A stretch of 52,952 nucleotides of DNA from Bernardetiaceae bacterium (GTDB lineage: Bacteria > Bacteroidota > Bacteroidia > Cytophagales > Thermoflexibacteraceae). Each line of letters begins with the position of its first letter. Position 1 is the first letter of the stretch. Positions 7,104 to 9,276 of this stretch are shown here, in pieces. The notes below the pieces were generated by a model. The model searched no databases. It was not told the DNA's origin and worked only from the letters and a program-made list of their open reading frames with translations. The stretch is from assembly GCA_025454895.1 (NCBI GenBank), contig JALONO010000010.1, positions 1 to 52,952 on the forward strand, given 5' to 3'. The translations under genes were made by a program, and so were the position numbers.

Positions 7104-7124
7104 GGGCGGGCCTTGTGCCCGCCC
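7104..7124 (+). terminator. GC-rich hairpin directly after the M61 gene
   Basis: GGGCGGG-CCTTGTG-CCCGCCC forms a 7-bp perfect stem whose first base directly follows the TAG stop. No U-tract follows, so termination is uncertain. The sequence GGCCTTGTGCCCGCC recurs upstream of proS at about 28433-28447, pointing to a dispersed repeat. Confidence 0.4.
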
Positions 7125-7305
7125 TGGTGGCCGTTGAACGAATATTTTCTTGAAAGCGACGAGAGTAAGCTTAAAGCCTTGTGCCCACCCTGGTGGCCGT
7201 TGAGCGCCCGTCAGCAACCGCTGCCGTGGCTTGGGGCCAACGGCAAGGCTTTGGCCACCCCCGCAACCGCTGCCGTGGCCCGGAGCCAACGGCCGGGTTT
7301 TGACC
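7110..7305. repeat. Two nested direct-repeat pairs
   Basis: A 31-bp unit beginning GCCTTGTGCCC occurs at 7110-7140 and 7176-7206, differing at two positions by my count. A second, 43-bp unit beginning GCAACCGCTGCCGTGG occurs at 7214-7256 and 7263-7305, with more divergence. A fragment of the second unit (CAACCGCTGCC then AAGGCTTTG) reappears at about 36758, upstream of an OmpA gene. The frames across this stretch show no family resemblance. Confidence 0.75.
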
Positions 7306-7389
7306 GCCCCATTGAGGCGGGCGCGAAAAACTCCCCGGCGGGAACTATCCCCGTCGTTTTTTTGGTAGTAACCGAAAAGCACCTTTCTC

Positions 7390-7596
7390 ATGAAAAAGAA
7401 AAAACCAGCCGCCCCGGCCGACGAGAAGCCCAAAGTCCACCCTGATCTGGAAGGCTTCGAGATGAGCATCAACTCGTTTGGGGAAATCGTGAGCACCCAC
7501 AGCATCGACAAACTGAACGAGTTTCTGAACCGCAAAGTGGACGATAAAAAGCTCCGCGACCGCGACGACCTGGCCCCGCCCGCCGCCGAGGCTTGA
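7390..7596 (+). CDS. Small conserved hypothetical protein
   Basis: Sixty-eight residues, rich in Lys, Asp and Pro at both ends, with a central core DLEGFEMSINSFGEIVSTHS, then a segment ending LNRKVDDKKLRDR. I recall similar core sequences in small cytosolic proteins across the Bacteroidota, but no function is known to me. There is no signal peptide or membrane segment. The ATG at 7390 follows an A-rich stretch. A strong terminator hairpin begins 51 bp after the stop, so this is probably the end of its transcription unit. The charged tails suggest a partly disordered protein. Confidence 0.7.
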   Translation: MKKKKPAAPADEKPKVHPDLEGFEMSINSFGEIVSTHSIDKLNEFLNRKVDDKKLRDRDDLAPPAAEA

Positions 7597-7646
7597 TCGG
7601 CCCGCCCGGCCAACAAAAATCGCCCGGGCGTGGTTTACCTGTTATT

Positions 7647-7694
7647 CCTAAGCCTAACGCCCCCTTCGAGCCAACTTGGGCTTAGGTTTTTTTT
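7647..7694 (+). terminator. Intrinsic terminator or attenuator just upstream of bshC
   Basis: CCTAAGCC (7647-7654) pairs perfectly with GGCTTAGG (7679-7686), with a 24-base loop, and is followed by eight T residues (7687-7694). This is the best hairpin-plus-T-tract in the window. It ends only 16 bases before the bshC ATG at 7711. It may simply terminate the small upstream gene, or it may attenuate bshC. Confidence 0.75.
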
Positions 7695-7710
7695 GTGTTG
7701 TTTTGGCCTC

Positions 7711-9276
7711 ATGAAAACTACCTGTATTGGTTTCCGCGAAACGGGCAAATTTTCCCGACTTTTTTGCGATTATGTGGATAACCACCCCGATTTGCAGCCC
7801 TTTTACGGCTTGCCACCAACTTTGGCTAATTACCAAGCGCAGATCGGGCAGAAGCAGGCCAGTTACCCGGCCGCTTCCCGGCCGATTTTGCAGCAAGCCC
7901 TGCAACGGCAGTACGCCCACCTGGCCAACCCGCCCGCCGCCAACTTAGATAAATTGCTGCAAACCAACACCTTCACGCTCACCACGGGGCACCAGCTCAA
8001 TATTTTTACCGGGCCGTTGTATTTTCACTACAAAATCATGACGGTGATCAACGCCGCCCGGTGCCTGGGCCAAGCCTATCCCGACTACCATTTTGTGCCC
8101 GTGTACTGGATGGCCAGCGAGGACCACGATGCCGACGAGATCAGCGAGTTCACTCTGTTTGGCCAACCCTACCGCTGGCAGCCCCAGCAAACCGGGGCCG
8201 TGGGCCGCTTTTCGCCCCATTCGCTGGCCCAAGTAATGGCCCAAACCCCCGAAATGGACGGCCTGTTCCAGCGGGCGTACACCCAATGTGCCACCTTGGC
8301 CCAGGCTACCCGCCTGATCGTGAACGAACTATACGGCCACCACGGCCTGGTGGTGGTCGATGGCGACGATGCCGACCTGAAACGGCTGTTCGCCCCGACC
8401 CTGCGCGACGAGTTGCTGCACCAGCCCAGCTACCCGGCCATGCAACGGGCCACCGCCGGGCTGCAAACCCTAGGCTATCCCGCCCAGGTGAACCCGCGCG
8501 AGATCAACCTGTTCTACTTGCGCGAGCACACCCGCGAGCGCATCGTGGCCGACCCGGACAACCAGGCTTATCAGGTGCTCAACAGCCCCTGGAAGTTTAC
8601 CCAGGCCGAGCTATTGGCCGAATTGGCCGCCCACCCGGAGCGGTTTAGCCCCAACGTGGTGCTGCGGCCCGTGTACCAAGAAACCATTTTGCCCAACCTC
8701 AGCTACACGGGCGGCCCCGGCGAGTTTGCTTATTGGCTACAACTGAAACCGGTGTTTGCGCATTTCAACCTCCCCTACCCCATTTTGCTGCCCCGCAATT
8801 TTGGCCTGGTAATCAACCCCATTCAACAGGCCCGGATGCAAAAACTGGGGCTGGAGGTACCCGCCCTCTTCCAGGGCATGGAAAAACCCAAACAGAAACT
8901 GATCGACCAGCACGCCCAGGGCAACCTGGGCACCGAGGCCGAGGCCGAACTGCTGGGCCAGGTATTTGCCCAACTGGGCCAGCGGGCCACCCAGGCCGAC
9001 CCCACTTTGACCAAACTGGTGGCCGCCGAACAACAAAGGGCCTTGCAAAGCCTGGGCAAGGTGGGCAAGCGCATCCGCCGGGCCTACGAGCGCCAGGCCG
9101 AAACTGAGCTACGTCAGTTGCAGTCGCTTTGGGGACAGCTTTTCCCCGGGGGAGGGCTGCAAGAACGCACCGAGAATTACTTGACCTTTGCCCTCAACGA
9201 CCCCGACTTTTTGCCCCAAGTGGCCGCCGCGTTTGACCCGTTTGACCTGCGGTTTTACGTGCTGCAAACCGAGTAA
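7711..9276 (+). CDS. bshC: Putative bacillithiol synthase, cysteine-adding enzyme BshC
   Basis: The 521-residue protein begins MKTTCIGFRETGKFSRLFCD. It contains the BshC hallmarks TTGHQLNIFTGPLYFHYKI (about 90-108) and PVYWMASEDHDADEISEF (about 130-147), which form the Rossmann-like nucleotide-binding core, and a C-terminal helical region (about 420-490). BshC is believed to join cysteine to glucosaminyl-malate in the last step of bacillithiol synthesis, in the cytosol. I chose the ATG at 7711 over an in-frame GTG at 7630, because the family N-terminus starts here and the earlier start would translate through the terminator hairpin at 7647-7694. bshA and bshB are not in the window, but the partner reductase ypdA is at 47738-48727. 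Length matches the family. Confidence 0.92.
   Translation: MKTTCIGFRETGKFSRLFCDYVDNHPDLQPFYGLPPTLANYQAQIGQKQASYPAASRPILQQALQRQYAHLANPPAANLDKLLQTNTFTLTTGHQLNIFTGPLYFHYKIMTVINAARCLGQAYPDYHFVPVYWMASEDHDADEISEFTLFGQPYRWQPQQTGAVGRFSPHSLAQVMAQTPEMDGLFQRAYTQCATLAQATRLIVNELYGHHGLVVVDGDDADLKRLFAPTLRDELLHQPSYPAMQRATAGLQTLGYPAQVNPREINLFYLREHTRERIVADPDNQAYQVLNSPWKFTQAELLAELAAHPERFSPNVVLRPVYQETILPNLSYTGGPGEFAYWLQLKPVFAHFNLPYPILLPRNFGLVINPIQQARMQKLGLEVPALFQGMEKPKQKLIDQHAQGNLGTEAEAELLGQVFAQLGQRATQADPTLTKLVAAEQQRALQSLGKVGKRIRRAYERQAETELRQLQSLWGQLFPGGGLQERTENYLTFALNDPDFLPQVAAAFDPFDLRFYVLQTE

Follow-up and report, generated by a model that had tools for sequence, protein, structure and literature searches.

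This locus raises the question of what a strong hairpin, followed by a run of T residues, is doing directly upstream of bshC on the forward strand of the window (the whole stretch of 52,952 nucleotides that was analysed). A sequence-only reading had offered two answers: either bshC is transcribed by attenuated read-through of the hairpin, or it is transcribed from a promoter buried in the right arm. We consider it probable that the hairpin is an ordinary intrinsic (Rho-independent) terminator, most likely that of the 68-amino-acid (68-aa) protein gene on its upstream side. RNA polymerase leaving that gene would make an 11-bp hairpin followed by eight U residues and would mostly stop at about 7690-7694. 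Expression of bshC would then rely on a separate start, with a non-consensus promoter overlapping the hairpin or lying after the T-run, or else on polymerases that read through the terminator. A regulated switch would be unnecessary.

The downstream gene is bshC, which codes for the bacillithiol biosynthesis cysteine-adding enzyme and spans positions 7711-9276 of the forward strand (TIGR03998, PF10079, PF24850). On the strength of its protein matches this assignment is secure, the TIGR03998 score being 394.6 bits against a curated cut-off of 265.8. The ATG at 7711 is taken as the correct start because the PF10079 model aligns from residue 1 of the frame that begins there. For the same reason a longer open reading frame from GTG 7630, which would have made the hairpin coding, was rejected; that start is also contradicted by the proteins of relatives, which begin at the corresponding place. 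The genes bshA and bshB1 are not linked to bshC (they lie on contigs C80 and C150), and inspection by eye of the 160 nt upstream of each revealed no T-tailed hairpin.

An inverted-repeat search places the 5' arm of the terminator hairpin (CCTAAGCCTAA) at 7647-7657 and the 3' arm (TTGGGCTTAGG) at 7676-7686, both read on the forward strand. They enclose a loop of 18 nt (7658-7675, same strand) and are followed by a T8 tract at 7687-7694, likewise on the forward strand. The stem has 11 bp, with five G-C pairs and one G-U, and the energy of the 7647-7686 hairpin is about -14.5 kcal/mol. It begins 51 nt past the stop of the 68-aa gene, and 16 bases (7695-7710) separate the end of the T8 tract from the bshC ATG. 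The sequence-only reading was right about a strong hairpin tightly spaced to bshC; its 8-bp perfect stem, eight T residues and 16 bases to the ATG are all confirmed by the sequence and the inverted-repeat search. Its outer 8 bp are indeed perfect, but the loop is smaller than the 24 bases it gave, since three more pairs leave 18 nt. Taken as a whole, the 131-nt leader is not exceptional (z -1.31; at least the same stability in 19 of 200 shuffles). The signal in the leader is thus the T-tailed hairpin and not overall fold stability. The hairpin has the two features by which intrinsic terminators are recognized, namely a GC-containing stem with a T-rich tract directly 3' of it and a position 3' of a same-strand gene, the 68-aa gene, which is presumably transcribed. 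The possibility that it is a genome repeat was discarded, the arm pattern being found once in the genome.

How such hairpins are distributed in this genome (4.58 Mb in 389 contigs) was assessed in a sample of 638,880 bases, or about 14% of the total, made up of the window and sampled contigs, in which a simple codon-usage caller found 441 genes. Under a strict definition (stem of at least 8 bp, at least 6 T in 8), 75 T-tailed stems are present, as compared with 6-15 in five dinucleotide shuffles, an excess of about 6-fold. All but seven, that is 68 of the 75, fall outside called genes, and 48 of these 68 have a same-strand gene end at most 200 nt upstream. T-tailed hairpins therefore mark transcript ends in this genome, being far above chance and mostly situated after gene ends. 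It follows that the element at 7647-7694 is most likely the terminator of the 68-aa gene. Nor is its tight spacing to the next start very special. Terminator-like hairpins with a stem of at least 7 bp occur in 26 of 192 co-directional gaps of at least 60 nt, and in 10 of these 26 the stem ends no more than 30 nt before the next start; in one of the 10, that start comes only 8 nt after a 13-bp stem. With the stricter stem of at least 8 bp, two of the 23 sites that have a same-strand start within 300 nt sit within 40 nt of it.

The 68-aa gene itself is an open reading frame at 7390-7596 of the forward strand and is conserved: counting its own genome, 61 of 79 contain a relative of it. Identity of the protein reaches 71% in other genomes, and no Pfam or NCBIfam model matched it. 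A weaker second copy is found at G000:C188:6049-6210. The regions downstream of the gene were read at 12 loci (its own and 11 others) drawn from these 61 genomes. By eye, a T-tailed hairpin follows the gene in 4 of the 11 relatives' copies, which fits the simple terminator reading. In the gap that separates the 68-aa gene from the preceding M61-type peptidase gene, two direct-repeat pairs lie within 7104-7330, one with starts at 7111/7177 and one with starts at 7216/7265. The first of these (7111/7177), taken as a full repeat, has no other occurrence in the 638,880 bases sampled. At 7336-7359 on the forward strand, hairpin scans also reveal another terminator-like hairpin that carries a T tract. 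Its stem ends 33 nt before the 68-aa start codon, and it lies more than 230 nt past the stop of the previous gene. The hairpin-before-start arrangement seen at bshC is thereby repeated one gene upstream, before the 68-aa gene.

Conservation of the leader bears directly on any regulatory role. bshC was found in 74 of the 79 genomes, own included. The upstream regions examined numbered 71, as two contig-end fragments (G043, G053) and a partial match (G024) were omitted. Two further loci lacking an ATG start (L117, L121) were not counted, which leaves the own locus and 68 others. A T-tailed hairpin within 120 nt of the bshC start is present at only 2 of these 68, and the leader DNA occurs in one of 291 searched genomes, its own; the search covered all 13 genomes of the family, which include no second congeneric species. 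Neither the conserved leader nor the covarying pairs expected of an attenuator were thus found in relatives, and the idea that the hairpin is a conserved bshC-linked element was dropped on the same counts. Gene order is no better preserved. When 33 bshC loci were searched by tblastn with the 68-aa protein, only the own locus fell below an E value of 0.3, and the closest pair of the two genes on one contig elsewhere is about 28 kb apart. Rfam covariance models gave no match at the gathering threshold in the window, and only chance-level hits at 7380-7730. The sequence-only reading had itself named the lack of the hairpin before bshC in relatives as the outcome that would reduce it to an ordinary terminator, so the interpretation falls back in that direction. 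Stems of at least 8 bp within 120 nt of bshC, T-tailed ones included, occur at 15 of the 68 loci, as against 3.15 in shuffles; L004, L007, L008, L030 and others carry long palindromes without a T tail just upstream of the gene.

If the hairpin ends the upstream transcript, bshC may need a promoter of its own, and one is plausible from what lies upstream of it. A sigma-70-type scan was set aside as being of the wrong promoter type for the phylum. The Bacteroidota -7 box TAnnTTTG is enriched in this genome, where it is found within 100 nt of 30 of 140 divergent gene heads (6.9 expected), most commonly at about -25 to -29 from the start. The candidate in the right arm, TAGGTTTT (7683-7690, forward strand), lies at -28 from the ATG and hence at a usual place. 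However, it is a weak match that lacks the final G, and there is no TTTG-like element at the -33 distance from it. Boxes without that G are not enriched at these positions, TAnnTTTT least of all (2 of 140 divergent heads versus 2.5 expected; 2 of 191 co-directional ones versus 4.2). No sigma-A promoter of the Bacteroidota type is therefore recognizable in the right arm, where the case for one is weak, and the choice between attenuation and a right-arm promoter is not established.

Further downstream lies another -7-like match, TTGTTTTG, at 7698-7705 on the forward strand (-13 from the ATG), with a TTG at the -33 place (7676-7678). With these two elements 19 nt apart and a transcription start at 7710/7711, bshC would have an almost leaderless promoter past the T-run, and the hairpin would serve only to insulate it. 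TTGTTTTG is the best match in the stretch, with a score of 7.03 in a weight matrix built from 54 strict sites, and TAnnTTTG boxes at -16 to -10 are known from 8 of 331 gene heads of the genome. Yet it has TT in place of the consensus TA, and its score is not significant, being reached by 10.6% of shuffled versions of that stretch. Leaderless mRNAs are moreover rare in the phylum, at 5.5% in F. psychrophilum (PMC9723704), while about 3.7% of 5' UTRs in B. thetaiotaomicron are < 10 nt (PMC7366714). This arrangement is accordingly judged unlikely. The scant promoter room before bshC is in itself not odd, because 5' UTRs in the phylum are normally short: the median is 24 in F. psychrophilum (PMC9723704), and in B. 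thetaiotaomicron it is 32 with a mode of 23 (PMC7366714).

A route left out by the sequence-only reading, whose pair of options was to that extent incomplete, is plain partial termination. In this model a single promoter serves both the 68-aa gene and bshC, and the hairpin, without regulation, keeps bshC at a constant, reduced level. It would account for the lack of a good promoter both for bshC and within 75 nt of the 68-aa gene, where none was found, and it is in keeping with the second terminator-like hairpin upstream of the 68-aa gene. A class of transcripts arising from partial termination is described in F. psychrophilum (PMC9723704). Against it, the pairing of the 68-aa gene with bshC is specific to this lineage, and the missing bshC consensus box says little because so many heads in this genome are without one (see the 30 of 140 above). 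We regard partial termination as a tentative proposal, somewhat better placed than the leaderless promoter. The likelihoods of both overlap with that of the terminator reading, since both are routes to bshC expression under it.

The suggestion that the loop might pair alternatively is borne out in silico, and from it a possible attenuator can be drawn. Structure prediction yields a hairpin of -17.4 kcal/mol just after the 68-aa stop, at 7600-7634 of the forward strand (a candidate anti-antiterminator), and another of -13.5 kcal/mol at 7626-7662 of that strand (a candidate antiterminator). In the latter, the predicted partners of 7626-7637 (GGGCGTGGTTTA) are 7649-7654 and 7657-7662, so that the 5' arm and the loop of the terminator would be sequestered. 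The 7626-7662 fold and the terminator stem are predicted to be mutually exclusive, and hairpin 7600-7634 would compete with 7626-7662. Translation of the 68-aa gene might then control read-through into bshC, in a manner peculiar to this lineage. By default, hairpin 7600-7634 would form and the terminator would follow. A ribosome positioned on the stop codon that ends the 68-aa gene (7594-7596) would cover 7597 to about 7605-7609 and break 7600-7634, upon which 7626-7637 would capture 7649-7662 and polymerase would read into bshC. Ribosomes extend a short way past the stop codon that they occupy and are released from it rapidly.

In the model, pairing of the terminator has a probability of 0.93 in the free leader from 7597, and of 0.014, 0.004 and 0.043 when the first 9, 11 and 13 nt are masked. 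The fold obtained with the first 11 nt blocked is about 8 kcal/mol less favourable than that of the free leader, and with these three blocks pairing stays at 0.146 or less from 15 to 37 C. When other flanks are placed before the same terminator, a switch of this strict, stop-codon-specific kind arises with 9 of 1000 shuffled ones and with 4 of 438 natural ones; these figures flatter it, because the criterion was defined after the fold was known. On upstream truncation, the pairing of the bshC terminator drops to 0.001, which is the lowest among 47 genome terminators (the next is 0.253) and the only value below 0.25, the other 46 being mostly stronger hairpins with smaller loops. Before the 3' arm exists, the 5' arm would pair upstream with a mean probability of 0.62, as compared with 0.24 in shuffles; this is reached by 1.4% of shuffles, or 3.2% with 100 nt upstream. 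Looser tests are weaker. Among 300 shuffles of its own upstream sequence, as low a minimum is seen in 3% and a flip at one truncation or another in 7.3%, and 15% of such shuffles bring terminator pairing to 0.1 or below at some truncation. In a further test of the 47 terminators, bshC ranks 2 on one measure and 24 on another. All folds come from a single RNA energy parameter set. Considering also that leader, hairpin and gene order are all non-conserved, we hold a translation-coupled attenuator to be improbable, more so than the leaderless promoter. The points that speak against the ordinary terminator are nevertheless this specific alternative leader fold, as modelled, and the want of a convincing bshC promoter.

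Should the alternative fold work, bacillithiol synthesis would be coupled to translation of the 68-aa gene, and the attenuator of thiol synthesis would be driven by an ordinary protein gene instead of a leader peptide. No such attenuator is mentioned in the titles and abstract openings that literature searches for bshC, bacillithiol and attenuation among Bacteroidetes turned up. The trp/his-type attenuators are ribosome-mediated and depend on a short leader peptide that contains control codons. As in those systems, one can draw here three segments that exclude one another (7600-7634, 7626-7662 and 7647-7686), and a translated frame lies immediately before them; unlike in those systems, that frame is the gene of a conserved 68-aa protein. 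In the partial-termination 3' regions of F. psychrophilum (PMC9723704), too, an intrinsic terminator separates two regions transcribed from one strand, but they were shown by RNA-seq, whereas the bshC case is known from sequence alone. The closest likeness to the preferred reading is with the intrinsic terminators of Bacteroidota, dozens of which are present in this genome as a GC-containing stem and T tract after a gene end. The bshC hairpin differs from them in its rather long loop (18 nt), its 11-bp stem and the very close next start, and for now it is best seen as a neat, ordinary terminator before a bacillithiol gene.
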